Shown in pieces: positions 8,803 through 38,078 of a stretch of DNA of 41,682 nucleotides (its first letter is position 1; each line of letters starts with the position of its first letter). A model generated the notes under the pieces. That model had not been told where the DNA came from. It made no database searches and was given only the letters and a program-made list of their open reading frames with translations. Origin of the DNA: a virus; the IMG/VR virus record IMGVR_UViG_3300042397_000091, positions 1 through 41,682 of that record. One strand, given 5' to 3'. The position numbers and the translations under genes are program-made.

Positions 8803-8811
8803 TGGTATACT
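8803..8811 (+). promoter_or_regulatory. Extended -10 promoter TGGTATACT, leaderless spacing
   Basis: TATACT (8806-8811) is preceded by TGG and ends seven bases before ATG 8819, so transcription would begin at or next to the start codon. A second TATAAT lies at 8796-8801, overlapping the upstream stop. Confidence 0.65.
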
Positions 8812-8818
8812 ATTGGTT

Positions 8819-9196
8819 ATGAATACTGAAAAATTTACCGTGCCTGGTCAGATTGGCCAAACAAAAGTTCAGGTTTTGGACAAACAATATGACTGGGGTA
8901 TCTATATCTGGAAAAAGGCTAACGGCAAGCCATTTACAGATGGTCAAGGTAACGTATTAAACGTACCGTCTCATAGGGGTGACCAAATTCAGATTCAAAA
9001 GTTAGTAAACGAAGCAAAGGCTCTAGGTCAAGGAGACGGATCGTATGAGTTCTATCCAGGAATGGGTAGAGTATCTGACGAAGAATACTCGGAGCAGGTA
9101 GACAGAATGAAACAGGGACTTATCCCAAACCTTAACGATCTTGGTGCAGTTCAGGCAGCCAAGGACACTATCGCTATGTATGGAAGTGATGATTAA
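8819..9196 (+). CDS. Unknown protein preceding portal
   Basis: 125 aa from ATG 8819 (MNTEKFTVPGQIGQTKVQVL). A TTG at 8813 would add two residues but lies too close to the -10 box, so the ATG is preferred as a leaderless start. The N-terminal half looks like a small beta domain (VLDKQYDWGIYIWKKANGKPF). The C-terminal half is helical, with SDEEYSEQVDRMKQGLIPNL and AVQAAKDTIAMYG. The stop overlaps the portal start (TAATG), suggesting coupled expression and a head-related role. No family is recognised with confidence. Confidence 0.7.
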   Translation: MNTEKFTVPGQIGQTKVQVLDKQYDWGIYIWKKANGKPFTDGQGNVLNVPSHRGDQIQIQKLVNEAKALGQGDGSYEFYPGMGRVSDEEYSEQVDRMKQGLIPNLNDLGAVQAAKDTIAMYGSDD

Positions 9197-16863: not shown

Positions 16864-17505
16864 ATGGGTACATACAGCAGAGGTACAAACGCTAACATTA
16901 TTGTTGGTGCAGCAGCCTTGTTCACATACGAAAACGGTGAACTTACAGACGCAGCACTGCCAGCATATGTTGACGGTACATCTTACAGAGACACGCTAAC
17001 TGACTACGATGGTGATGACGCAGGCTCTGGTTTCGATTTCCGTAACGTAGGTTATACTATGAACGGTCTTGAACTCCAGTTCCAGCCAGACTTCGGAGAA
17101 GTCCAGGTAGACCAGTTTCTAGACGTTGCAAAACTTTACAAGCAGGGAATGCAGGTTAACCTTAACACTACATTCGCTGAGGCAACTCTAGAAAACTTGC
17201 TATTCTCACTCGCAGGAAAGGACACAGACCTAACCACAGTGTCAGGCAATCCAACACTCAACCTGTCAGCAGGTGACATTGGAGAATGTCCAGTAGAGCG
17301 TGGTCTTATTGCAGTTGGTCCAGGTACAGGTGACTGTGCTCCGACCGAGCAAATCGAACGTGTTTACGTTGCATACCGTGCACTCTCAATTGAGAGCGTT
17401 ACAGCATCAGCGAAGCGTGACGAGGCTACTATGTTTGAAGTGTCGTTCCGACTACTTCCAAACAACGATGCGTCTTACGGAAAGATCGTAGACCGCACCG
17501 TCTAA
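16864..17505 (+). CDS. Major tail (tube) protein
   Basis: 213 aa. MGTYSRGTNANIIVGAAALFTYENG opens a beta-rich protein with NGLELQFQPDFGEVQVDQFLDVAKLYKQG and repeated strands ending ...MFEVSFRLLPNNDASYGKI. This fits tube proteins of long-tailed phages. A dedicated promoter upstream and a strong terminator directly after make it a single-gene, probably high-level unit. It lies just before the tail chaperones and tape measure, as is typical. Arginine codons are mostly CGN. Confidence 0.82.
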   Translation: MGTYSRGTNANIIVGAAALFTYENGELTDAALPAYVDGTSYRDTLTDYDGDDAGSGFDFRNVGYTMNGLELQFQPDFGEVQVDQFLDVAKLYKQGMQVNLNTTFAEATLENLLFSLAGKDTDLTTVSGNPTLNLSAGDIGECPVERGLIAVGPGTGDCAPTEQIERVYVAYRALSIESVTASAKRDEATMFEVSFRLLPNNDASYGKIVDRTV

Positions 17506-17522
17506 TAACTAAATAGTGTGAG

Positions 17523-17558
17523 ACTGCTCAGGTATTCGTACCTGGGCAGTTTCTTTTT
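17523..17558 (+). terminator. Terminator with UUCG tetraloop
   Basis: ACTGCTCAGGTA (17523-17534) pairs with TACCTGGGCAGT (17539-17550), 12 pairs with one G-T, closed by TTCG. The T-tract TTCTTTTT follows. The tail of the terminator touches the next promoter (17558-17566). Confidence 0.95.
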
Positions 17559-17566
17559 GGTACAAT
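17558..17566 (+). promoter_or_regulatory. Extended -10 promoter TGGTACAAT, leaderless spacing
   Basis: TACAAT (17561-17566) is preceded by TGG and followed by AGAGTT and ATG 17573. The six-base gap puts the transcription start at the start codon. No Shine-Dalgarno lies upstream. Confidence 0.7.
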
Positions 17567-17572
17567 AGAGTT

Positions 17573-18247
17573 ATGGCTACTACAATATATAAAAGCAAAA
17601 ACATCTACTTGGTAGATGGAACAGAGGTATACATTACCCCACTAAAAATTAAATACCTAAGACAGTTTATGGACAAGTTTGATCAAATTAAGGATGCCCA
17701 GGAAAACGGACAAGATCCAAATCAAATATTGATGGAGTCTGTTGTTATAGCAATGAAGCAATACTGTCCCCACATTAAGACGGTAGAAGACTTGGAGGAC
17801 AGCATAGATATGCTAACTCTGTATGACTTTCTAGAGGCCTCAGCAGGAATCAAGTTAAAACCATCAGAAGAAGAAAAAGAAGAACCTGTTGATGACGAAA
17901 ATACCTGGGGCAAACTAGATTTGGCAAAACTAGAAGCCGAGGTATTTTTGCTCGGCATCTGGAAAGACTACGAAGACCTAGAGTCATCTCTGTCTATGGC
18001 AGAACTAACAGAAACCCTAAATGCCAAGCGTGAGGCAGAGTATAGCGAAAAGAAGTTTCTTGCAGCAATGCAAGGTGTAGACCTAGATAAGCAATCTGGA
18101 AAAGAAGATGCTTGGGAAAAGATGAAGGCTAAAGTGTTTAGCGGAGGCCAGGCTGCAAACTCAAACGATATTCTTGCTTATCAGGGTGCCAATGCCTCAA
18201 AGGCTGGCTTTGGTATTGGTATGGGACTAACTTACGAAAAACTATAG
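17573..18247 (+). CDS. Tail assembly chaperone, long form
   Basis: 224 aa. Residues 1-105 (KNIYLVDGTEVYITPLKIKYLRQFMDKF...) are clearly paralogous to the 105-aa protein encoded at 18301-18618. Residues ~112-224 add a gpT-like extension: KLEAEVFLLGIWKDYEDLESSLSM, then KFLAAMQGVDLDKQSG and WEKMKAKVFSGGQAANSND with a glycine-rich end. In lambda-type phages such an extension is reached by programmed frameshifting. Here it is fused in a single frame. It is predicted to bind and solubilise the tape measure protein encoded downstream. It is probably leaderless. Confidence 0.82.
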   Translation: MATTIYKSKNIYLVDGTEVYITPLKIKYLRQFMDKFDQIKDAQENGQDPNQILMESVVIAMKQYCPHIKTVEDLEDSIDMLTLYDFLEASAGIKLKPSEEEKEEPVDDENTWGKLDLAKLEAEVFLLGIWKDYEDLESSLSMAELTETLNAKREAEYSEKKFLAAMQGVDLDKQSGKEDAWEKMKAKVFSGGQAANSNDILAYQGANASKAGFGIGMGLTYEKL

Positions 18248-18265
18248 AACGACAATAGCCTTTTG

Positions 18266-18274
18266 TGTTATAAT
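18266..18274 (+). promoter_or_regulatory. Extended -10 promoter TGTTATAAT
   Basis: TATAAT (18269-18274) is preceded by TGT. AAGGGAGG (18288-18295) and ATG 18301 follow, so the short chaperone has its own promoter and a good ribosome site. Confidence 0.7.
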
Positions 18275-18300
18275 AATAGAGACCTTTAAGGGAGGCAAAA

Positions 18301-18618
18301 ATGACAACTACCGTCAACGAAACCAAGACAATTAGTCTTATTGATGGAACAACTATTTCAGTTAGACCGCTGAGAATTTCACTACTCCGTGACTTCATGG
18401 ACAAGTTTGAAAAGATCGCAGAGGTTGCTGACGACAATGCAAAATCGATGAACCTTCTCATGGAATGTGTACAGATTGCTCTAAAGCAGTACAAGCCAGA
18501 GATTGCTGATGATCTAGCAAAACTGGAAGACTTGATTGATCTTCCAACCGTGTACCAGATTGTCGAAGAGGCTTCTGGTATCAGACTATCCGATGCGTCA
18601 ATCATCGGGGTCAAATAA
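18301..18618 (+). CDS. Tail assembly chaperone, short form
   Basis: 105 aa. ISLIDGTTISVRPLRISLLRDFMDKF aligns with the long chaperone's N-terminal half: both have a D-G-T, a P-L-[KR]-I, an F-M-D-K-F and later a ME-x-V-x-I-A-[ML]-K-Q-Y block. It stops where the gpG-like domain ends. It therefore looks like the gpG product supplied by a separate gene. It has a stronger ribosome site than the long form, consistent with the excess of short over long product known in frameshifting systems. The tape measure gene follows after 23 bases. Confidence 0.82.
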   Translation: MTTTVNETKTISLIDGTTISVRPLRISLLRDFMDKFEKIAEVADDNAKSMNLLMECVQIALKQYKPEIADDLAKLEDLIDLPTVYQIVEEASGIRLSDASIIGVK

Positions 18619-18641
18619 TAAAATAAAGAAGGTGTTTATAG

Positions 18642-21600
18642 ATGGCTGATATTCAGTCCAATATTAATGTTAACATTAATACGTCTGAAGCCCTAGCAAG
18701 TATTAGGACTCTGCAACGTCAGATATCGGCCTTCTATGAATCTATGGCACGTTCAGGTGCTGCAGCCAGTGCTGCAGCATCTAACATGCAGAACAACTTA
18801 ATAAACACTATCAACCAAACAGGCAAATTCTCTGCCTCAATTAAAACTATAGCAAGCACCACAGAAGCCTTTACGACTTCGCTTGAAAAGAACAAACTGT
18901 CAATGGGACAGTACTTCAAGTTTGCTGGTGGTGCCTCAAAAACTTTCGGTAAGTTCTTTAAAACCGAAATGGATACCATCGACAAGGTAGCCAGAGAACG
19001 TGTAAAGACCCTACAAACCCAATACATCAAATTGGGACGTGATGCTAGCGGTGCATTAAAGTCTATTGCAATTAGACCACTAACGCTAGACATGAAAGAT
19101 CTGGGAACTCAAACAGCAATTGCTGCCCAGAAACAACAACTTATGAACCAACTGCTAAAGCAGGGTTCTACAAATCTACTAAACTTCGGTAAGAATACCC
19201 AGTGGGCTGGTCGCCAGTTGATGGTTGGTTTCACCATTCCGTTGGCAATGGTGGGTACCGCTGCTGCTAAAACATTTATGAAGATGGAAGAGCAGGCCAT
19301 CAAGTTTAAGCGTGTATATGGCGACTCCATGACACCAGGAGCAGAAACAGATGCAATGGTCAAGCAGATTCGGGAACTTGCAACAGAGTTTACCAAGTAT
19401 GGTGTTGCTGCAGAAAAGACTATGGAACTTGCTGCTACGGCTGCTGCTGCTGGTAAGCAAGGATTGGAACTAACTGCACAGGTTAGAGAAGCAAACCGTC
19501 TAGCAGTTCTTGGTCAGGTAGAGCAGCAAGAGGCCCTTAGTACCACTATTTCTATTACAAACGCTTTTGGTGTTGCTGCTTCGGACCTTGCAAAAAAGAT
19601 TGACTTCCTAAACGCAGTAGAAAACCAAACCGTAACATCCATTGAAGACCTAACAATTGCAGTACCAAAGGCTGGTCCTGTTGTCAAGCAACTCGGTGGT
19701 GACGTAGAAGACCTAGCATTCTTCCTAACAGCAATGAAGGAAGGTGGAATTAACGCATCAGAAGGTGCTAACGCACTTAAGTCTGGTTTGGCAGCACTTA
19801 TTAACCCAACAGGAAAAGCAGCAGATATGCTTGCCAGTTTTGGAATTAACGTTAAGGGAATCGTAGAGGCTAACAAGGGAGACGTTAAGGGCCTAGTTGT
19901 AGACTTTGCAAAAGCCCTAGACACACTTGACCCACTAAGCAGAGCAAGAGCCATTGAACAACTATTTGGAAAGTTCCAGTTCTCACGTCTGTCAACACTA
20001 TTCCAAAACGTAATTGCAGAGGGAACTCAGGCATCACGTGTTCTTGAACTAACTGGAAGAAGTGCTTCAGACCTAGCAGCACTATCATCTAAAGAACTTG
20101 GAACCGTTGCTGCTTCATCAATGTTTAAATTCCAAAAAGCAGTAGAAGAACTAAAGATGGCTTTGGCCCCTATTGGAGAAATCTTCCTAAAACTTATAAC
20201 CCCACTGCTTGAGTTTGGATCAAAGGTTCTTGAAAACTTTAACAAACTTGACTCTGGAGCAAAAAACTTTATTGTTGGATTAATTGGCGTTGTTGGTGGC
20301 CTTGGCCCAGTTCTTATTATGACATTCGGTCTTCTTGCCAACGGTATTGCTAACATCATCAAGGGGTTCATGCTTGTTAGAAATATATTTACTAAATCTG
20401 GAGATTCGTCAAAGTACCTCGGAGATCAAACAGAATACATGACCCAACAACAGTTGGAGGCAGCAGGTGTTGCTGCATCTCTTGAACAGGTACACCAAAG
20501 ACTAGAGCAAAGATTTACATCAGAAGCAATAGCAGTAGATAAACTTACACAAGCATTACAACGTGCTAATAATGCAAACCTAACTTATATGGGTAGAAAT
20601 ACAGGGGCTGCTGGAGCAAAGCCAAAGAAGTATGCAAAGGGCGTTGTGTCTGTTCCTGGTCCAAAGGGTGCTGGAGATATTGTTCCTGCAATGCTCTCCC
20701 CAGGCGAAGCAGTAATTCCATCAAAACAAGCAGCAAAATATGCTGCACTAATTCAGGGCATTGTTGCAGACAACCTTCCAGGATATGAATTTAGTAACGT
20801 CGATACTTCAGATGCTAACAGGCCTAGCCAAGCAAGAAGGGCAAAATCTGGTGGAGGTCAAAGCCTAGTAATTCGTGGAGGTGCAGATCAGGCACACTTT
20901 GATACAAACGAAAACATGTCCATGACTATACGAGAGATTGAGGCTATGGCGGAAAGCATGGGTAGGGAACTATCAAGTGCTGCTAGAAGAATGTTCGAAA
21001 GACTTGCAGCCGAATCTGGACAAGGCCTAGACACAGTCATTAGGGTTTGGAGCGATAAGGTAATTATGTTGGAGGGAGAACTTCACAAGTTATTCACTTC
21101 AAATGCAGGAGAAGACAAAGGCCCAGTACCAGTTTCTGCAGTCAAGAGAGTTTTGTCAGAACAAGGTGCAGGAACTTATGCAAAAACAAGAGACACTCTG
21201 ATCAGCCAAGGAGTTTCTGAATCAGATGCAAACGAGCAAATAGGCTTAATTGAAAAGGAAGTCTCAAGACGTTTAGATGCTCTCGGGGATGAAGCAGTAA
21301 TAACTTCACAAGAGTTTAATGGATTTGTTGAAAGTGCTCACAAAGCGGTTGGAGAACTAACTAGAAAACTTGGTGAAGCAGAAAGCGATTTGGAACGAGC
21401 ATATGCTACCATGTCAGAGATTAGAACTTTTCAAGGAAAAGATTCAAAAGGAAAAGTAAATAGATTAGATATCTTTGCTAACGAACCAGGATACCAAAAT
21501 ACAAACGTAACAGCAAAAACAAGAGAATCTGCCAACAAATTATCTGATGGAAATATTCTTCGAAATAGAGGAATGAAAATTACTCAGGATATTGAGGATG

Positions 21601-24600
21601 CTGTTGGAAAATCTGAAAAAGAGATTCTAGAGGCTTGGGGTCGGATTCCATCAAGAATGCAAGACGAACTTGCAAGCATAAGAAGTAATGCAAAAGGTTT
21701 TGCTGATAGATTCCAAGAAATTCTTAAAACGCTGGGAATATCAATCAACACATCGTTACAGACTGGACTATCTGCCATACCTTCACAGGCTGGTGCAAAC
21801 GTTACCCTTGGCGGTGTAGGGCAGGGCCTGGATGAAGCAATTCAGAGAAACTCTCCTCCAAAAGAAGCAATTAAAATTGGTAGAGATTATGGCTTTGCTC
21901 TAAATGGAGCATTAAGAGAACTTATTCCAAAGGTCAGGGTAGCAGGAGAGGCATTTGGAGTAGCAGCAACTACAGGAATGACAACTGTTACCCCTGCTAT
22001 GAGACAGCATCTAATAGATCATGCTGGAAGAATCCTAAGACCATATCTTGACGCACAAGGAAGACTAGTACCAATAGCAAAGCAGAAAATTGAAATTCTT
22101 GACAGAGAAGCGATTGCTGCTAAGAAAGCAGCAGATGCCGAAAACCTAAGACTACTTGCAATGCAGAGAAACACAAACATGTCGCTTATTGCAGCAGGAG
22201 TGCCACAATCCCTGATCTCAGATGGACCTGGCAACAAAGACAACTCAGGTAATAATCAAGACAATACTCCAGGCACAGATAAAACAAATACCAAACTAAA
22301 TAGATTTAACAATAGCCTAAGAACTGGCTCATTCATGCTAACATCTCTAGCAGCAGCAGGAACAATGTCTGGTGGAGTTATTGGAGAAATGTCTACAAAA
22401 GTTATGCAATTCTCTGGAATTATTTTTGTTGCCAGCACATTAATGGATCTTTTGGTTGCAGCACAACAAAGACAAATACTTGCTCAAATAGCACACACTA
22501 AAGCAATAGAGGCAGGAACCATAGCAGCAGGAACACAAATGAAAACTGGATTTTTGACCACACTGAGCAACTTCTTAATGTTTAGTAGTGGCAAGGCTAA
22601 GGGAGGAAAGTTCCTAACAGAGTTAGCATCTAAAACTGTGCCAGTTACTGGTGCTTTTGCAAAAGCAGGCGGTGGCCTAAAGGGCTTTATTGCTGTAATT
22701 AAAAATGCTGCTATAAATGTTGGAAAATTTGTTTCTGTTGGACTTAGGTTTATTCCTGTTATTGGTTATATCATAGCAGCAGTTGGTGCCTTTATACTTA
22801 TAACAAATCTTGTTCGTGATGCAAAAGAACGTGAGCGTCTTGCAACAGAGGGTGTGTCCGACGCTATGATCAGCACAACAGAAGAGTTAAACTCAATTGC
22901 TGAAGTACTTGGAAAACAAGAAATAAAAAGTTCAGTAGATAGAATTGGAATTGGACCAGCATCAGAAGAACAGATTGGTGTAATTGACAAACTTAGGGGA
23001 AGTCAAGAATTTAAAGACAGATACAAAGCAGACATTGACGCAATGAGGACAATGTCTCAAAGAGAACTTCAGTCATATCAAAACACATTGGCAATTAGTT
23101 TACAGGCTACTAATCAATACACGAAAGAAGAAATTGAAGGAGTTATAAAAGCCTTACAACTAGAAGCAGGTAGAACAGATGTTAAACTAAATTTTGCAGC
23201 AATTGATATTACTTCAAAAGATCCAGCAATCTTCCAAAGAAGTCTGGATAAATTTGCATCAAATGCAAAGGCTTCTCAGTTAAGTTCTCTAGATGAAACT
23301 CAGTCACAAGAAGCAGAAAATGTTGCTATTGCTGGATACTATCAAACCTTTGACTCTGTTAATACTGCACTTGCAACTGGAGCAATAGGTCTAAAAGACT
23401 ACACAACAAAAATGGATGCCCTAAAGAAGTCCCTGACAGACCTAGGACAGGCAACAGAAACAACTGTTGTTCAAGGAATGATGAACAGTTTTACGGAAGC
23501 ATTGAAAAAGACTCAACCAGAATTAGCAGAAATGGCCAGCAAAGTCAAGGGTGCCAGCGGTCAATTGTTTGTAATGGATGCTCTAACTTCTGGAGCAATT
23601 ACAGACATATCACAACTTGCAGAAGTAATTAGAGCACTAAACACACTTGCTCTTGGAGAAATGAGTGTTGATGCTGACACCTGGGCTGCAGCAAATAGAG
23701 TTATTGAAGGAACTAAAAAAACTATTGCAGAGGCTACAAAAGCAACAGCAGCATATAAAGATGCTCAAGAAACAAAGGGTAGTGGTGAAAAATCAATATT
23801 CCAACAGGCAACAGAAAGTTTGTACGATAACGTAAAAGCAATCAAAGAATCAACAAAAGCATATAGTCTATTGTCCAAAGCAGGTTTGTCGGCATCGGAT
23901 GCCTTTAAAATTGCTAAAGATCCAATACTTGCAGCAGCACTAGCAACAACAAAAGTTGGAACTGCAAAATGGAAAGAACTAATTGATCGCATACAAGAAT
24001 TTTTGGCTATTACAAAAACTAGTGGTTTGTCACAAAAAATATCAGAACTTTTTGGAGAAAACCAAAAACTACAAAATATGGAAAAACTTTCAAGGTATCT
24101 TCAGCAAACAGGGCTTGACGCAGAACAACTACAAGAAGTCCTAAATGACCCAGAGTTGGCAGATCAACTTTTGTATGCTACTGGAGAAGGCAAAAAAGGA
24201 TTTGACCAGATCAAAAAAACTGTTGGCTTTATTATAAAAAATAAAGAAATAAAAATATCTCTATTGCCAATAACAGAACAGTTTAAAGAAAAAATGAGCA
24301 AAGTGACAGAAGCCTTTAATGCAAAGAAAAATGTTTTAGACATACAGTTTAGAATTGACACCAGATCAAGCCAAGATATTGTCAGGAAGGCACAAGCAGA
24401 TATTAATGCACTAAACTTCCAAGCGGATGACTACGAGGCAGGCCTTACAAGACTTGAAGATGGCGAAGAGGCTATTAATGAAAAATACGATAATCGTATT
24501 GAGGCACTAGACAAGGTGATTGCTGCAAACGATCGCATTGCAAACCAGAATAAAGAAGAACTAAATATCTTCCAGATGGTTGCCAGAGGAGACATTGCAG

Positions 24601-27600
24601 GTGCTGCAGCAGGCATTGCACAATTGCAACAACAAAAAGCCAAGGATGCTCTTGAAGCAAAGAAAGAGTCTTTGCAGGCTCAAAGAACAAATGAACTAGA
24701 GTCACTAACTGCCGAGGTAGTTGTTGATGGACAAAAGGTTCGAATGACTCGTAATCAAATTGAAGAAAACTTAAAGAACATTAAGCAACAAATCTTTAAC
24801 ATTGAGGAAAACACTCTAGAACCAGCCCAAAGACAAATTGAAAAAGCACAAGAAAAATTAGATGCAGACAATGCGTCACTAACAGTACTTGAACTCACAG
24901 AAGATGAATGGCTTAAAATTGAAGCAAATATAGACCTTGCAACAGTGTCAACAGTGGCATACGTAAAAAAACTACAAGAAGCACTTGACATTGCAAAACA
25001 AATTCCAGGAGCCCTTGACGGAACTTCCGCAAAGGGTGGAGACATTGTTGGCCAACAAGATCCAGTTTTAGAGACAGACTTTGGAAACAATGCAAAAATT
25101 AAACCGCAACCTAAGCCTGGTGGCGGTGGGCCTGGTATGCCACCTCCACCTGTTACAGAAGCAGAAAAAGATGAGGTTGCAGCAAATAGAGGATCGACAG
25201 AACTAATATGGGGAAAGGGAGCATCCTATTCACAGGTATCCTCCTACCAGAATGATCTTGCCAAGGTTAGAAGATGGGAATCAGGCGACAAATCATGGAT
25301 GAGCGAAGACAACTATAAAGAGTCTAAGAAAAAAGTCAAAGACTTTGAAATGGAATATGGCAAAAGAGATGTTGTTACTGGAGAATTTTGGTCATCACCA
25401 AGACTAAAACAAACATTACTTGATAAAAAGTTGTCAGGTACACAATGGGGAGTACCGTATGTTCCTCCAAATCCGTTTGCAGTAGGCGGTAAAGTAAAGG
25501 GCCCTGGTACTGGAACGAGCGACTCTATTCCAGCACTACTATCTAATGGAGAATATGTAATTAGAGCAAATGCTGTTAGGGCTCTTGGTACAGATACCCT
25601 GGACAAGATGAACTATGCTGATAAGAACAGATTTGCTGATGGTGGCTCTGTAGGTAGACAAGAGGCTGCTATGGCAGCAAGAGGCGGAGCAAAGCCAAAG
25701 AGCAACCCAATTGCAGACATTGCAAAGGCAATTTTCTTCGCACCTCTTGACATGGCAAAAGACTTTAACAGGTCAATAGGGAATGTTCTTACTGGTAAGG
25801 GTGATGGTCTAGACTACCTAAGTCTAGCGTCTGCTCTGCCAGCAGGTAGAATAACAAGTTCTGCATCAAAAATTCTTAAATCATTATCTACTAAAAAGGC
25901 ACCACTGGGAGTTGGCGTTAAAGAAATATCTGGAGTAGAACCCCTACTAAACCCAAATGATAGTCTTGTAAAATCACTTGTAACTGGTAATCTGCTACAC
26001 GGATCAAAAGCCCAGACAGCAAAAGAGTTTGCCATTAAGACATCTGGTGGATCTAAAGAAAACTGGTTTGGAGCAAATTTCTTTACAACTGGAAGCGAAG
26101 AGTTGGCAAATTCCTATGGTGCTGCTATTTACAGAATGCAAATGCCACTTTCTCAAGCACAGAGTTTAAAGATTCTAGACCTATACCCTGGTGCAAAGCC
26201 AATCGAGCAACAGTTTCCTGGGCTTGTGGACATTATCAAATCAACTGGTGTAAATTTAAGCAGAGTAGAAGGGCTTAAAGATATTGCTCTAGCGACTAGG
26301 TCAAAAGCAGGGGCAAAGTTTATTAATAATCCAAAAAGACATATGGCAATAGCAGATGCCATTAAGTCGTCACCAGAATTAAAGAATATATTAACTAAAA
26401 AATTCGGTATTAATGCTATAAGGCATCAATCTGGGCACAACGTTGGTATGGAACAAACTTTTTCTGAAGTTTTTGCTTTCTTTAATCCAAAAAATATAAA
26501 AGCAAAATATACTGGCAACATTGAGGCAGAAGAAGCACAGATTGCAGCCGAGGCTGCCCTAGTTCAAAAATGGCTGGATCAAGCAAGATCTGCAAGGAAA
26601 AAAGCCAAGGGAGGTCTTGTTCGTTACGCAGATGGTGGATTTGTTGATAGACAAGATACCGCTATGGCTAACAGGGGCAAAAAGTCAAACCCACTAATGG
26701 ATACCCTCAAGTCAATATTCTTTGCACCTCTTGATATGGCTAAAGAGTTTAACAACTCAATAGGTAATGTACTTACTGGCAAGGGTCAAGGCGGAGACTT
26801 CCTAAATGTAGCATCTGCATTGCCAATAGGCAAGGGGGCCAGCCTTCTTGGAAAAGGATTTGGTGCAGTTAAAAGCCTTATAAAAAACAGACCAGGTTCT
26901 ATTGAGTCTATGCTAAATCGTTCTGTAATCGCTACAAGAATGCCTCACGACACACTTTTGCAAATGCTAAGAACTGGAGATACGAAATACCGTACCGCTT
27001 TTGAAACAGGAACTGGAGCAGACTTTATAACTCAAACAGGTCACTTGGCAGGCAAGCCAGATCCATATAACAAACGCATGAGACATGCAATGGAAGAGTA
27101 TGCCTTTGCAATTGACTACAAGAAAAATACCCTTGAGCAAAGACCAACATATGGATTAATGGCAACTGTTGGTCCAATAAACAAAGCACTAAACGCAATT
27201 TCTGGCGGTAAGTATGCAAAGAGATTTAATGAACTTACAAACCCAATGAACACAAAATTAGATCTATATGGGGACATCTCGTTAATCTCTAATAAAAAGG
27301 TTCCAAAGCGTTCACAATTTTATGCTGGAGATCTTAGAAATGCGTACTATCAAAATGACGCACACTTCATGTATAGGAAAACCCAAGGAATAAACTTCCC
27401 ACCAATGCGTGGGGCAAGCCAAGCAGAAATTGCTGGAAATCCTAGTGGCTTTTTAGCCGATAAAGTTAAGCCATTAAATATAGGCGATTCGGTTCAGTTT
27501 GCACCATATATTGAGGCATATACAAGAGGCGGATTTGATCTAAGCGAAATTTCTAAAATTTTGGTTAGCAATCCAAACATTCTTAAAACATTGCCACAAG

Positions 27601-30230
27601 AATTAAAAAAGAGTGGATTAGATATTCCAGTTAAACTATACCCTGGAATAAGATCAAAAGAAATTCTTTTTAAGACTCTAGACTTCCTGGCTGATATAGA
27701 AGACAAGGTTAGAGGAAAGAACACACTCAAGTTAAATAGTCAGGATATGCCTAAGTTTGCAGATGGCGGACTTGTTGATAGACGTGATGCTGCAATGGCT
27801 GCAAGAAATCCTAACGCTGCCAGAGACAAACTGTTTAAGAAGGGCGGTATTCAGGGATTTGAGGCTGGAATCCAGGGGATGCTATCAGACTTTGGAAAAC
27901 TTGATCCAGTAAAAAACTTTGCAAATTTCCTAACAGATAAAGGCAATGCCTTAGCATTTGAAACAAGAAAAACTATGGCCTTCCTATCTACGCCAGTTGA
28001 AATTCTTGGAGGAAAAGCCAAATCATTTGCAACCATTGCAAGTCAAATATCTAAGGGAAATATTCCTGGAGCAATAGGAACAGCACTTAAATCTGGACTG
28101 GGTATTGATACCATTGAGTCTATCGGAAATGCATATTCTGGAGTTTTGGATCCATCAAAACAAAAAGCAACAATGTTTGAGCAGGCTGGTCAAACGGTAA
28201 TTAGTAACAAACTATTTGGAGCAGGGAACCCAGAATCAGACGCACTTGCTAGAGTTATTGCAGGCTCTCTAAACCTTGCTGGAGACCCACTATCTTATTT
28301 GGGTGTTGGAGCAGCAGCCAAGGGAATTAAACTTTCAGCATCTGCTGCTACCTCAGCAGCAAAAATTGGACAGATTGGCAACGTTGTAAAAAATGTAGGC
28401 AAGGCAGCAGGATATACACCAGGATTGCTCGGCCTACCAAATGCAGCAGATGTTCAGAACATAGCCTCATTGCTAAATAAGGGAAAGATTTCAGGTGGTG
28501 TGGGTAGCACAGCAAAGGCTGAAGACACTTCTTGGGCAGACTTTGACCCATTTGATGATTCATCTGTGGTCCCAACAACAGTGCCTACAATTAGTTTAGG
28601 TACATCAAGTCCACTAGATAACGTATTCACATCAGAACCAGTTAGAAAAGTAGTCGATACTGATGCTAATACATCTAACTATGAAGAACTTGCAATGAGC
28701 AAGGTAAGAAACCTATTTCACCCACTTAAAAATCCAGAAGGCTTGTCTTACACCTATAAGCCAATAGATCTTATGTTTGGAGACCCAGGCCACATAATTG
28801 AAGCAAAAACACCAACTGGAGAATCCGTTGGAAAACTAGAGTGGAAGGCTGACACTGGCGAAATTGACATGGTGTTTGTTGATAGAGACTTCCAGCGTAA
28901 AGGTGTTGCTACAGACATGTGGCACATGGCAAATATAGAGGCTTTGAAAAATCCAAACATTTTGCATCCACTACACTCTCCAGAATTATCTGCAACAGGA
29001 AGAGCATGGAGAGATTCTGTTGGCGGAGGCATGCTTGAAGACACAATCAATGCAAAGTTCAAGTTTAATAGAGAAAACTTAGTTAATCCACGAGAAGAAT
29101 ATCTAAAAACTATATCTAATAATGCAAACATAGCCGAAAAACTCAAAACCCCTGGAAAGATTATGGACATGTTTGGAATGAAGGGCAATCTTTCTGCATC
29201 TGGATTAACACCAGACGAACTTTACACTATAGAAGAATATATTGCACGTCCAGGAAGACTCCACTTTAGTACATTCAAAAACGTAAGAAAAACTGTTGAC
29301 GACATAATTTCTAAAAATAACCTAACAATTCCAAAGGGTTCAAACCTGGTTCGTGTTACTGGAAACAGAGATGCAGCACAGTTAGCCGAAATGAAGGCTG
29401 GAGACAGGTTTACCCTGGATCAGTTCTGGTCTGTAACTTCTGGAGAAGACACAGACTTTTTGGAAGGCATGGCGACTGCATCTAAAGACACAGGCGGAAG
29501 ATATTCTCTAATTGAAATGATCAATGGAAAGCCTGTTGCTAAAAAGTTCCCACTTATTAAGTTTAACGTTAGATCAGATGTTCCTGGAATTTGGAATATG
29601 AACTCTTTGCTAGAAGAGCCTGCCTCAGACGTGATTGATGGACTGCTTGCAAGAGGACAGTCTATGGAAATAGAGTCTATTACTACTGGCATTGACGGAC
29701 AAAAAATATATAACATTAACTTGGGATCTATTGCAGAAAATTCATCAATTCCAGAACTTGGGCTAAACGAATTTAGCACTAAAAAATGGTACGAACAAAT
29801 GCGTAATGATCCAAGCCTAGATCCAAAATATGCTAAAGATTGGACCGAGCAGGGCTTCATCAAAGAAATGAATAAAATTCGTATGGACGAGATGTCGCCA
29901 ATTTATCGTGCCAAGGGTGGTATTGTTGCTCCTAAGTACTTTGCCAATGGCGGAATGGTTATGCCTAAGTATTTTGCTAAGGGTGGAGATGTTGTTCCTG
30001 CTATGCTTACCCCAGGAGAATTTGTAATGACCAAACACGCTGTAGATAACTATGGGGTAGACAACCTGAGAGCCATCAATAGTGGTGCAGCACCAGGCAA
30101 CTCAGTGTATAATGGATATAACATTAATGTCAATGTCAGGTCTAACTCAAACCCAGACCAAATTGCAAATGCAGTTATGACACAGATTAGACAGGTTAAT
30201 GCACAACAAGTAAGAGGTAGTAAGTTCTAA
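18642..30230 (+). CDS. Giant tape measure protein with toxin-like cassettes
   Basis: 3862 aa. Residues ~1-170 are helical. Residues ~170-560 fit the phage tape measure core (LLNFGKNTQWAGRQLMVGF, many Ala/Gly helices). Hydrophobic stretches lie at ~541-575, 1235-1273 and 1367-1391. Glycine-rich IPA-x-LS-x-GE-x-V motifs occur at ~663-705, 2279-2325 and near the C-terminus (VVPAMLTPGEFVM). Residues ~1950-2225 are long coiled coil. Residues 2331-3700 hold successive cassettes of enzyme-like domains, annotated separately. The protein sets tail length and is expected to be ejected toward the host cell at infection (family knowledge). Arginine is mostly AGA/AGG. The start ATG follows GAAGGTG, and the stop overlaps the next start (TAATG). 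Confidence 0.92.
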   Translation: MADIQSNINVNINTSEALASIRTLQRQISAFYESMARSGAAASAAASNMQNNLINTINQTGKFSASIKTIASTTEAFTTSLEKNKLSMGQYFKFAGGASKTFGKFFKTEMDTIDKVARERVKTLQTQYIKLGRDASGALKSIAIRPLTLDMKDLGTQTAIAAQKQQLMNQLLKQGSTNLLNFGKNTQWAGRQLMVGFTIPLAMVGTAAAKTFMKMEEQAIKFKRVYGDSMTPGAETDAMVKQIRELATEFTKYGVAAEKTMELAATAAAAGKQGLELTAQVREANRLAVLGQVEQQEALSTTISITNAFGVAASDLAKKIDFLNAVENQTVTSIEDLTIAVPKAGPVVKQLGGDVEDLAFFLTAMKEGGINASEGANALKSGLAALINPTGKAADMLASFGINVKGIVEANKGDVKGLVVDFAKALDTLDPLSRARAIEQLFGKFQFSRLSTLFQNVIAEGTQASRVLELTGRSASDLAALSSKELGTVAASSMFKFQKAVEELKMALAPIGEIFLKLITPLLEFGSKVLENFNKLDSGAKNFIVGLIGVVGGLGPVLIMTFGLLANGIANIIKGFMLVRNIFTKSGDSSKYLGDQTEYMTQQQLEAAGVAASLEQVHQRLEQRFTSEAIAVDKLTQALQRANNANLTYMGRNTGAAGAKPKKYAKGVVSVPGPKGAGDIVPAMLSPGEAVIPSKQAAKYAALIQGIVADNLPGYEFSNVDTSDANRPSQARRAKSGGGQSLVIRGGADQAHFDTNENMSMTIREIEAMAESMGRELSSAARRMFERLAAESGQGLDTVIRVWSDKVIMLEGELHKLFTSNAGEDKGPVPVSAVKRVLSEQGAGTYAKTRDTLISQGVSESDANEQIGLIEKEVSRRLDALGDEAVITSQEFNGFVESAHKAVGELTRKLGEAESDLERAYATMSEIRTFQGKDSKGKVNRLDIFANEPGYQNTNVTAKTRESANKLSDGNILRNRGMKITQDIEDAVGKSEKEILEAWGRIPSRMQDELASIRSNAKGFADRFQEILKTLGISINTSLQTGLSAIPSQAGANVTLGGVGQGLDEAIQRNSPPKEAIKIGRDYGFALNGALRELIPKVRVAGEAFGVAATTGMTTVTPAMRQHLIDHAGRILRPYLDAQGRLVPIAKQKIEILDREAIAAKKAADAENLRLLAMQRNTNMSLIAAGVPQSLISDGPGNKDNSGNNQDNTPGTDKTNTKLNRFNNSLRTGSFMLTSLAAAGTMSGGVIGEMSTKVMQFSGIIFVASTLMDLLVAAQQRQILAQIAHTKAIEAGTIAAGTQMKTGFLTTLSNFLMFSSGKAKGGKFLTELASKTVPVTGAFAKAGGGLKGFIAVIKNAAINVGKFVSVGLRFIPVIGYIIAAVGAFILITNLVRDAKERERLATEGVSDAMISTTEELNSIAEVLGKQEIKSSVDRIGIGPASEEQIGVIDKLRGSQEFKDRYKADIDAMRTMSQRELQSYQNTLAISLQATNQYTKEEIEGVIKALQLEAGRTDVKLNFAAIDITSKDPAIFQRSLDKFASNAKASQLSSLDETQSQEAENVAIAGYYQTFDSVNTALATGAIGLKDYTTKMDALKKSLTDLGQATETTVVQGMMNSFTEALKKTQPELAEMASKVKGASGQLFVMDALTSGAITDISQLAEVIRALNTLALGEMSVDADTWAAANRVIEGTKKTIAEATKATAAYKDAQETKGSGEKSIFQQATESLYDNVKAIKESTKAYSLLSKAGLSASDAFKIAKDPILAAALATTKVGTAKWKELIDRIQEFLAITKTSGLSQKISELFGENQKLQNMEKLSRYLQQTGLDAEQLQEVLNDPELADQLLYATGEGKKGFDQIKKTVGFIIKNKEIKISLLPITEQFKEKMSKVTEAFNAKKNVLDIQFRIDTRSSQDIVRKAQADINALNFQADDYEAGLTRLEDGEEAINEKYDNRIEALDKVIAANDRIANQNKEELNIFQMVARGDIAGAAAGIAQLQQQKAKDALEAKKESLQAQRTNELESLTAEVVVDGQKVRMTRNQIEENLKNIKQQIFNIEENTLEPAQRQIEKAQEKLDADNASLTVLELTEDEWLKIEANIDLATVSTVAYVKKLQEALDIAKQIPGALDGTSAKGGDIVGQQDPVLETDFGNNAKIKPQPKPGGGGPGMPPPPVTEAEKDEVAANRGSTELIWGKGASYSQVSSYQNDLAKVRRWESGDKSWMSEDNYKESKKKVKDFEMEYGKRDVVTGEFWSSPRLKQTLLDKKLSGTQWGVPYVPPNPFAVGGKVKGPGTGTSDSIPALLSNGEYVIRANAVRALGTDTLDKMNYADKNRFADGGSVGRQEAAMAARGGAKPKSNPIADIAKAIFFAPLDMAKDFNRSIGNVLTGKGDGLDYLSLASALPAGRITSSASKILKSLSTKKAPLGVGVKEISGVEPLLNPNDSLVKSLVTGNLLHGSKAQTAKEFAIKTSGGSKENWFGANFFTTGSEELANSYGAAIYRMQMPLSQAQSLKILDLYPGAKPIEQQFPGLVDIIKSTGVNLSRVEGLKDIALATRSKAGAKFINNPKRHMAIADAIKSSPELKNILTKKFGINAIRHQSGHNVGMEQTFSEVFAFFNPKNIKAKYTGNIEAEEAQIAAEAALVQKWLDQARSARKKAKGGLVRYADGGFVDRQDTAMANRGKKSNPLMDTLKSIFFAPLDMAKEFNNSIGNVLTGKGQGGDFLNVASALPIGKGASLLGKGFGAVKSLIKNRPGSIESMLNRSVIATRMPHDTLLQMLRTGDTKYRTAFETGTGADFITQTGHLAGKPDPYNKRMRHAMEEYAFAIDYKKNTLEQRPTYGLMATVGPINKALNAISGGKYAKRFNELTNPMNTKLDLYGDISLISNKKVPKRSQFYAGDLRNAYYQNDAHFMYRKTQGINFPPMRGASQAEIAGNPSGFLADKVKPLNIGDSVQFAPYIEAYTRGGFDLSEISKILVSNPNILKTLPQELKKSGLDIPVKLYPGIRSKEILFKTLDFLADIEDKVRGKNTLKLNSQDMPKFADGGLVDRRDAAMAARNPNAARDKLFKKGGIQGFEAGIQGMLSDFGKLDPVKNFANFLTDKGNALAFETRKTMAFLSTPVEILGGKAKSFATIASQISKGNIPGAIGTALKSGLGIDTIESIGNAYSGVLDPSKQKATMFEQAGQTVISNKLFGAGNPESDALARVIAGSLNLAGDPLSYLGVGAAAKGIKLSASAATSAAKIGQIGNVVKNVGKAAGYTPGLLGLPNAADVQNIASLLNKGKISGGVGSTAKAEDTSWADFDPFDDSSVVPTTVPTISLGTSSPLDNVFTSEPVRKVVDTDANTSNYEELAMSKVRNLFHPLKNPEGLSYTYKPIDLMFGDPGHIIEAKTPTGESVGKLEWKADTGEIDMVFVDRDFQRKGVATDMWHMANIEALKNPNILHPLHSPELSATGRAWRDSVGGGMLEDTINAKFKFNRENLVNPREEYLKTISNNANIAEKLKTPGKIMDMFGMKGNLSASGLTPDELYTIEEYIARPGRLHFSTFKNVRKTVDDIISKNNLTIPKGSNLVRVTGNRDAAQLAEMKAGDRFTLDQFWSVTSGEDTDFLEGMATASKDTGGRYSLIEMINGKPVAKKFPLIKFNVRSDVPGIWNMNSLLEEPASDVIDGLLARGQSMEIESITTGIDGQKIYNINLGSIAENSSIPELGLNEFSTKKWYEQMRNDPSLDPKYAKDWTEQGFIKEMNKIRMDEMSPIYRAKGGIVAPKYFANGGMVMPKYFAKGGDVVPAMLTPGEFVMTKHAVDNYGVDNLRAINSGAAPGNSVYNGYNINVNVRSNSNPDQIANAVMTQIRQVNAQQVRGSKF
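25632..25850 (+). repeat. Tape-measure linker cassette A
   Basis: From residue 2331: FADGGSVGRQEAAMAARGG, then SNPIADIAKAIFFAPLDMAK, then NRSIGNVLTGKGDGLDYLSL and ASALPAGR. About two thirds of ~70 residues are identical to cassette B. Both copies precede a different domain. The LTGKG...SALP.G pattern resembles pretoxin linkers of polymorphic toxins (inference). Confidence 0.85.
25929..26525 (+). other. H-F-E type ADP-ribosyltransferase-like domain in tape measure
   Basis: Residues ~2430-2628. GNLLHGSKAQ gives a His at 2453. WFGANFFTTGSEELANSYG gives the G-x-x-F-F-T pattern at 2476-2482. FSEVFAFFNPKNIK gives Glu 2609 followed by a final strand. This order (LHG, GxxFFT...A..YG, then E-V-x-x-F-x-P-x-x-I) is that of toxin-type ADP-ribosyltransferases of the H-Y-[EDQ] class, with Phe where Tyr is usual. 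The match is by eye and activity is unproven. Confidence 0.55.
26625..26838 (+). repeat. Tape-measure linker cassette B
   Basis: From residue 2662: YADGGFVDRQDTAMANRGKK, then SNPLMDTLKSIFFAPLDMAK, then NNSIGNVLTGKGQGGDFLNV and ASALPIGK. It is a near copy of cassette A, 993 bases downstream, so everything between is one module length. Confidence 0.85.
26898..27600 (+). other. Unassigned enzyme-like domain (RPTYG ... YIEA) in tape measure
   Basis: Residues ~2753-2986. Ordered signatures are RTAFETGTGA, RPTYGLM (2834-2840), LYGDISLISNKKVPKRSQF, YAGDLRNA and PYIEAYTRGGFDLSEI with Glu 2958. The pattern recalls ADP-ribosyltransferase-like or DUF3626-like domains carried at the ends of some phage and toxin proteins, from memory only. 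It lies between linkers B and C. Confidence 0.45.
27756..28440 (+). other. Linker C and hydrophobic pretoxin-like segment
   Basis: From residue 3039: FADGGLVDRRDAAMAARNP repeats only the first ~19 residues of linkers A and B. A different ~200-residue Gly/Ala-rich segment follows (KKGGIQGFEAGIQGMLSDFG, NIPGAIGTALKSGLG, SLNLAGDPLSYLGVGAAAKG). It joins the linker to the GNAT-like domain and could interact with membrane or act as a pretoxin spacer; this is inference. Confidence 0.6.
28674..29030 (+). other. GNAT acetyltransferase-like domain in tape measure
   Basis: Residues ~3345-3463. VGKLEWKADTGEIDMVFVDRDF leads into QRKGVATDM (Q3418 to A3423), which fits the GNAT acetyl-CoA pyrophosphate loop Q/R-x-x-G-x-G/A. 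It is followed by an amphipathic helix and by HSPELSATGRAWRDSVGG, an ending I recall from GNAT-like domains in phage proteins. Substrate unknown. Confidence 0.65.
29154..29736 (+). other. R-S-E type ADP-ribosyltransferase-like domain in tape measure
   Basis: Residues ~3505-3698. NLVRVTGN supplies Arg 3571. FTLDQFWSVTSGE supplies the S-x-T-S strand (3597-3600) in place of S-T-S. The third motif is unclear: MEIES gives E3676-x-E3678, but alignment of LLARGQSMEIESI with the usual PRGTxFxVxSV places the catalytic Glu at Asp 3666. The fold call is fair, catalytic competence is uncertain. Confidence 0.6.
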
Positions 30231-37607: not shown

Positions 37608-37616
37608 TGGTATAAT
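37608..37616 (+). promoter_or_regulatory. Extended -10 promoter TGGTATAAT, leaderless spacing
   Basis: TATAAT (37611-37616) is preceded by TGG and followed by AGAGAT and ATG 37623. It has the same layout as 17558-17566, with no ribosome site possible between promoter and start. Confidence 0.75.
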
Positions 37617-37622
37617 AGAGAT

Positions 37623-38078
37623 ATGGCACAACTACAAGACCCACAACCAGGACAACCGCTAGACCTTGACTATGTATCATCATTGGTTAAGGCCGTCAAT
37701 ATAATTCTTGACAAACTGGCATCGTCTACATCAGTAGGAAACTCTACAGTGGCTACTGCATCAGGAAACGAAGCAGCCAAGACATCTGACCTAGTCTTCG
37801 TTGGTGGATATAAAGAAATTTTTGGTACAGCACAATCTGTTACTGCAGGAACTTCCAAAGACTTTTCTCTAGACTTTCCAAATGGAATTACCTTTAAAGT
37901 TCCACCTATTGTAACCGCTACGCCATATACCCTGAATTCAACTGACGCAGGTAGAAACGTAACTGTCATTCTTAAGTCTGTAACAACCAGTAAGGTAGAA
38001 GGAACAGTTATTTTTAATGCAAACGGTAACGTTTCAATTGGAGTAAACCTTATTGCTATTGGAGTACCTAGGGCATAG
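37623..38078 (+). CDS. Small structural protein, beta-sandwich C-terminus
   Basis: 151 aa, probably translated from a leaderless transcript. Residues 1-65 are helical and low-complexity (LDLDYVSSLVKAVNIILDKLASSTS). Residues ~75-151 form a beta-sandwich pattern: DFSLDFPNGITFKVPPIVTATP, NVTVILKSVTTSKVEGTVIFN, then NLIAIGVPRA. The helix-then-sandwich plan looks like a short trimeric tip or an H-type-lectin-like binding protein (inference). It is the last structural gene before the regulator. Confidence 0.65.
   Translation: MAQLQDPQPGQPLDLDYVSSLVKAVNIILDKLASSTSVGNSTVATASGNEAAKTSDLVFVGGYKEIFGTAQSVTAGTSKDFSLDFPNGITFKVPPIVTATPYTLNSTDAGRNVTVILKSVTTSKVEGTVIFNANGNVSIGVNLIAIGVPRA

Follow-up and report, generated by a model that had tools for sequence, protein, structure and literature searches.

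Paired Long and Short Genes for Putative Tail Assembly Chaperones in a Phage Lineage Related to One-Gene Frameshifting Phages

Organization of the Chaperone Locus

The DNA analyzed in this study, referred to as the window, is the whole 41,682-base stretch of the virus record IMGVR_UViG_3300042397_000091, and the features of the chaperone locus described below are located on its plus strand. Two genes lie directly between those of the major tail protein and the tape measure protein, the position occupied by chaperone genes of the G/GT type. The upstream neighbour (16864–17505) encodes a major tail protein of 213 aa with matches to phrog_2175 (1.7e-30) and to the major tail protein family phrog_885 (0.0027), and tblastn shows that it is also homologous to Streptomyces phage proteins annotated as major tail proteins. 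The downstream neighbour (18642–30230) encodes a tape measure protein of 3862 aa (PF10145, 4.8e-26), the presumed client of both chaperones. The long copy comes first (17573–18247), starting with ATG and encoding a gpGT-like protein of 224 aa in a single uninterrupted frame, followed by the short copy (18301–18618), which also starts with ATG and encodes a gpG-like protein of 105 aa. An earlier note on this DNA had described a 105-aa gpG-like gene beside a 224-aa gene with a paralogous N-terminus and a gpT-like extension, and had proposed aligning the two products. The open reading frames are as described, and the two products do align, the short protein matching the long gene over residues 1–98 with 43% identity (tblastn, E=1.3e-22), a value which indicates that the paralogy of the two copies is not due to chance.

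The long protein can be divided into three parts. A G-like N-terminal domain (residues 1–97; 17573–17863) is paralogous to the short protein, with both products matching phrog_10504 (5.5e-17 and 1e-18). It is followed by an acidic in-frame linker (17864–17899), which replaces the frameshift zone of the one-gene relatives and is devoid of any XXXYYYZ heptamer, and by a T-like C-terminal domain beginning with WGKLDLAKLEAEVFLLGIWKD (17900–18244), which matches phrog_10474 (7e-15) and is homologous to the −1-frame extension found in Streptomyces phages. AlphaFold2 models of the long and short proteins reached pLDDT values of 79 and 74, respectively, and their N-domains show the same secondary structure, consisting of two short strands followed by helices. 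For the long protein, pLDDT is mostly 88–95 over residues 11–90 and lowest at residues 103–105, where the linker is weakly modelled, the C-domain beyond it being helical.

A Foldseek search of the BFVD viral models with the predicted long structure returned viral proteins whose names identify them as tail assembly or frameshift chaperones, of which only the nearest, the tail assembly chaperone A0A6J5QVP5 (E=1e-3), is significant, the match to Kitkat A0A140G6L0 being weaker (E=0.018). No significant match was obtained when the predicted models were searched against PDB folds, and the solved HK97 chaperone 2OB9 matched the predicted structure only at E=5.2 (TM 0.32), which is not convincing and is counted against the explanation favoured below. 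Pfam matches of both proteins fell below the cut-off and were disregarded, while matches of the profiles to PDB sequences, among them prion and CsoR, had E values of roughly 0.3 or worse and were attributed to chance. Sequence homologues of both window proteins carry the annotation "tail assembly chaperone", and we infer this function for the long and short genes.

One-Gene and Two-Gene Relatives

In tblastn searches, the long protein matched 128 phage records and the short protein matched 99, nearly all of them Streptomyces phages of approximately 120–135 kb. In Emma1919, Patelgo, and Yaboi, the chaperone locus is also situated between the major tail and tape measure genes, and comprises a short CDS and a long CDS joined from two pieces, both annotated as tail assembly chaperone; in Daubenski and Coruscant, the same DNA has been annotated as two ORFs. 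In each of these five phages, it is the −1 frame to which the second half of the window long protein aligns. The same one-gene layout is present in the Rhodococcus phages NiceHouse and Trina (Trinavirus), with a G GGA AAA heptamer preceding the stop of the first frame; a scan of viral contigs with the Rhodococcus N-domain found nothing. These Streptomyces and Rhodococcus loci indicate that isolated phages possess a homologous form with a single, frameshifting gene. In Circinus, Braelyn, Tomas, Wakanda, Wofford, and Annadreamy (L181, L184–L188), the −1-frame extension is given as a separate ORF, often as "hypothetical protein", and has not been joined.

A census of 349 loci was compiled from IMG/VR scans (with both proteins and with alignments of both domains), one genome-collection hit and the phage records, and the loci were classed using profile HMMs for the N and C domains. 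The loci overlap between scans, and the window itself accounts for two of them, the distinct sequences amounting to 191 long, 187 short, and 74 one-gene. The one-gene form was detected in 98 loci, all with the C extension in the −1 frame; these comprise 93 loci, three more with an insert in the N domain, and two from Rhodococcus, which the profiles recognise through the C domain only. The two-gene form accounts for 249 loci, all with a long gene in which both domains share a single frame, followed by a second N domain, the long gene always being first. The other two (L102 and L343) contain one fused N and C domain and end soon after the first gene. In keeping with the earlier note, which had proposed mapping the genes in relatives and looking for one-gene ancestors, the pair is found together in approximately 190 distinct relatives, and one-gene frameshifting relatives occur in cultured Streptomyces and Rhodococcus phages as well as in environmental phages.

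A few loci had an unusual composition. The three with an insert (L202–L204) were considered as "N N C" intermediates and rejected as such, since each has one N-domain split by the insert; they are one-gene frameshift forms with an insert within the G-like domain. Likewise, L009 and L088 have no third domain, their apparent "N C C N" order being due to a long copy from which an internal stretch has been deleted. In L009 (4369–4947), a near relative of the window, this in-frame deletion removes approximately 32 residues of the T-like domain and is either a natural variant or an assembly error. Locus L349 (CAINGU010000031.1), the one hit from the genome collection, carries the chaperone in its one-gene frameshift form on a phage-like contig that has been assigned to an "uncultured cyanobacterium" MAG. 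This is probably a binning matter, and the MAG is not a safe guide to the host.

The Slippery Heptamer

In the 74 distinct one-gene sequences, a heptamer is found at one fixed position, as CCCAAAC/T in 54 genes, CCCGGAA in 17 and GGGAAAC in three, where it codes for Asp-Pro-Asn/Glu, or Gly-Asn, shortly before the stop. CCCGGAA is not a textbook heptamer, and its presence in these 17 genes is counted against the explanation favoured below. Beyond the shift, the −1 frame of some members encodes a Gly/Ser-rich linker and then the T-like domain, which starts with a conserved W-x-x-L-D-L.

The heptamer of the one-gene forms has no counterpart in either copy of the pair. None of the 187 distinct short genes contains CCCAAAY in frame, with the corresponding position now mostly occupied by Ser-Asp-Ala-Ser-like residues, and none of the 191 distinct long genes contains it in the linker, five of them having CCCAAAY elsewhere. 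A search of both window genes detected no slippery heptamer. The window thus has a separate in-frame long gene, which is one open frame, and a paralogous short gene, an arrangement without the programmed frameshift of the lambda type. The earlier note had named two observations that would speak against its reading, namely a copy unrelated to chaperones and frameshifting persisting in the long gene, and had suggested searching that gene for a slippery site; neither observation was made.

Promoters, Ribosome Sites and Terminator

The sequences flanking the two genes differ markedly in their predicted signals. A strong intrinsic terminator with a 15-bp stem, a 4-nt loop, and a T-run (from 17520 to 17553 or 17556; −24.4 kcal/mol) would close the major tail protein transcript, and is followed by an extended −10 box, TGGTACAAT (17558–17566), ending exactly 6 nt before the long-gene ATG, which constitutes a predicted leaderless promoter. 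Upstream of the short gene, a second extended −10 box, TGTTATAAT (18266–18274), is followed by a strong Shine-Dalgarno (SD) sequence, AAGGGAGG (18288–18295), with predicted anti-SD pairing of −11.4 kcal/mol, as opposed to −2.9 kcal/mol for the long gene.

These patterns are conserved in the relatives. The motif TGnTAnnnT, which occurs in 8–14% of shuffled sequences, was detected near the ATG in 170 of 175 long-gene upstream regions, with a spacer of exactly 6 nt in 126, and approximately 26 nt upstream of the ATG in all 174 short-gene regions; every one of the 175 long genes starts with ATG. Median anti-SD pairing is predicted at −11.1 kcal/mol for the short genes and −2.9 kcal/mol for the long genes, the latter being essentially without an SD, and the short gene has the stronger site in 127/127 loci. 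The earlier claims that each gene has its own promoter and that the short form has the stronger ribosome site are therefore borne out, the former as a prediction. The one-gene forms resemble the short gene, with the motif in 61/66 regions, approximately 25 nt upstream, and a median SD energy of −10.2 kcal/mol. Terminator-like hairpins are located upstream of 91/173 long genes, 37/67 one-gene forms, and 1/165 short genes, compared to two in shuffles of the long-gene regions.

A TANNNT motif approximately 12 bp upstream of the start has been reported in a survey as a mark of leaderless genes, which are frequent in Actinobacteria (PMC3160421). In 126/175 long genes, the 6-nt spacer puts the first T of this motif at −12, and the window box fits this leaderless placement exactly. 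The long-gene mRNA is thus probably leaderless and without a Shine-Dalgarno sequence. Considering the promoter, SD and terminator patterns together, the long gene appears to occupy its own transcription unit, with the short gene carrying what would be the ancestral start. Leaderless translation can be efficient in Actinobacteria, so that the absence of an SD does not guarantee that little of the long protein is made, a point counted against the explanation favoured below.

Two other genes of the window have an extended −10 box that is also placed for a leaderless transcript, so that such starts may be common in this phage. One box, TGGTATAAT, lies 6 nt before the ATG at 37623 (37608–37623), and the other, TGGTATACT, lies 7 nt before an ATG at 8819 (8803–8819), where the TTG at 8813 listed as the ORF start may be incorrect.

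Proposed Origin of the Pair and Alternative Explanations

It is highly probable, in our assessment, that the pair represents short gpG-like and long gpGT-like chaperones, with a frameshift gene having become two and the ratio of the products being set at initiation. The ancestor would have been one gene subject to −1 programmed frameshifting close to the 3′ end. From this gene, an upstream copy with the G and T parts fused in one frame would have arisen, always making the long form, along with a downstream copy ending after the G part, always making the short form, and the slip site would have disappeared from both. The short to long ratio, once determined by the frequency of slippage, would now be determined at initiation: the short gene would retain the ancestral promoter and strong Shine-Dalgarno, and the long gene would be isolated behind a terminator, with a promoter start coinciding with the ATG and an mRNA that is probably leaderless and has no ribosome site. 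The homology, gene order, frames, heptamer presence or absence, and conserved promoter, SD, and terminator patterns are all read directly from the sequences. The protein ratio, the transcription starts, and the host of the window phage enter this account as inferred elements. For the wider proposal, that a large environmental lineage swapped frameshifting for duplication, with a rare long form that is leaderless and an abundant short form that is SD-led, as inherited from the frameshifting ancestor, the grounds for and against appear evenly balanced.

The history of the two copies was addressed through phylogenetic trees. In a tape measure tree rooted on Rhodococcus, the two-gene phages nest within the one-gene phages, with one exception, from which the one-gene frameshifting form would be ancestral. 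The exception, L278, has a one-gene frameshift chaperone beside a tape measure of the two-gene clade, a combination which could have originated through recombination between chaperone and tape measure or through reversal, and which suggests exchange. In the N-domain tree, the long copies form one clade (99/94) located outside a group of environmental one-gene forms and short copies, which makes the short copy the nearest to the old gene. The long copy would then either have evolved faster after a local duplication, or have separated earlier or elsewhere. In accordance with the latter, the long gene may have come from another phage lineage, or the duplication may be older than the split between environmental one-gene and two-gene forms and have been followed by later loss. 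We regard such an origin as possible, though the less probable course; it would explain the separate clade of long N-domains and the mixed composition of L278, but the long C-domains fall among those of the environmental one-gene forms, a grouping of long and short N-domains as sisters is not rejected (p-AU 0.23), and faster evolution of the long copy could yield the same tree. A local duplication is accordingly a likely, though not proven, source of the extra copy, given that the N-domain tree does not show the long and short copies as sisters. The earlier note had claimed that gene duplication replaced recoding; the paralogous pair, the absence of the slip site from both copies and the one-gene relatives support this claim, but its simplest form, a local duplication, is not proven.

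It has also been considered that one copy may serve in another role, for instance with the short protein as a scaffold or regulator and the long protein alone as the chaperone, in which case no G/GT pair would exist. The modest N-domain identity would be in line with such divergence, but this is an unlikely explanation, since both copies are kept in the same order and position throughout the distinct two-gene loci and share the same predicted N-domain fold, with the short copy closest to the one-gene G proteins. Persisting recoding, whereby a non-canonical or reverse (dnaX-like) shift in the long gene would make some short product, or a shift in the short gene would add a tail, is hardly credible, given that, although 58/191 long genes hold some XXXYYYZ in codons 85–125, mostly TTTTTTR at conserved Phe-Leu codons, heptamers in long genes are fewer than synonymous shuffles predict (0.92 per gene vs. 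1.46 expected), only 14 of 115 linkers hold one (101 being heptamer-free), neither window gene has any, the −1 and +1 frames close within a few codons, the alternative frames of the short gene do not extend, and the tape measure frame, considered as the destination of a shift out of the short gene, is closed by the TAG at 18639, upstream of the tape measure ATG.

Comparison With Known Chaperone Systems

In lambda, the gpG:gpGT ratio of 30:1 and its role have been established, and the frameshifting is widely conserved (PMC5009743). The lambda proteins resemble the window pair in being short and long isoforms with a shared N-terminus and a T-like extension on the long form, encoded between the major tail protein and tape measure genes. 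The window differs from lambda in having two separate genes, no slippery heptamer and no frame overlap, with the long gene upstream of the short. In systems of the lambda type, the short product greatly outnumbers the long one, with G binding to the tape measure protein and T to the tail tube protein. The Stanwilliamsviridae (Emma1919, Yaboi, Coruscant) and the Rhodococcus Trinavirus (NiceHouse, Trina) are closer still, having direct homologues of both domains and of the neighbouring genes, but theirs is one gene, in which CCCAAAY, CCCGGAA, or GGGAAAA precedes an extension read in the −1 frame.

Two-gene chaperones are not a new idea, since pairs have already been published for phage 0305phi8-36 (PMC2147016) and for T4-like phages (PMC10885494). 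The former has paralogous short and long genes without frameshifting, and its long gene has been reported as essentially without a ribosome site. It belongs to an unrelated myophage lineage, however, and the available part of the report describes neither a frameshifting one-gene sister group nor a leaderless promoter pattern. T4-like phages, which constitute a different phage group, have one short gene and one long fusion gene, with no recoding (Vladimirov et al., 2022, as cited in PMC10885494). The one-gene sister group of the window lineage argues for an origin of its pair independent of both, as far as the published descriptions allow comparison.

The preferred reading, that a frameshifting gene became two with the ratio set at initiation, bears on a broader question. 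Few recoding events are as widely conserved as the frameshifting of tail chaperones, for which the usual explanation is the need for a fixed isoform ratio. With approximately 190 distinct two-gene loci standing beside approximately 75 distinct one-gene frameshifting relatives of the same tail-module gene order, the question of whether frameshifting itself is needed, or only the ratio, becomes directly testable, and the contrast between a leaderless and an SD-led start is a candidate means of holding the ratio without recoding. As far as the searched literature extends, the new aspects are the extent of the two-gene arrangement in the window lineage, a sister group of frameshifting phages whose slip site has been identified and has been lost by the long and short copies alike, and the conserved contrast between leaderless and SD-led starts. 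In practical terms, annotators need not expect a frameshift join in two-gene genomes.

Additional Features of the Window

Two further observations concern other virion genes of the window. The virion gene block has at its left end a gene for a 510-aa protein (977–2509) with an Mtd_N (major tropism determinant N-terminal) domain and matches to tail-fibre families. In the tape measure protein, residues 3393–3436 (28818–28949) give a weak GNAT acetyltransferase match that is below the cut-off (PF13673, 5.8e-4), and Gly-rich repeats such as KGGKVKGPGTGTSDSIPALLSNGEYVI occur near this stretch. Judging by eye, the 3862-aa protein may contain further enzyme-like inserts.
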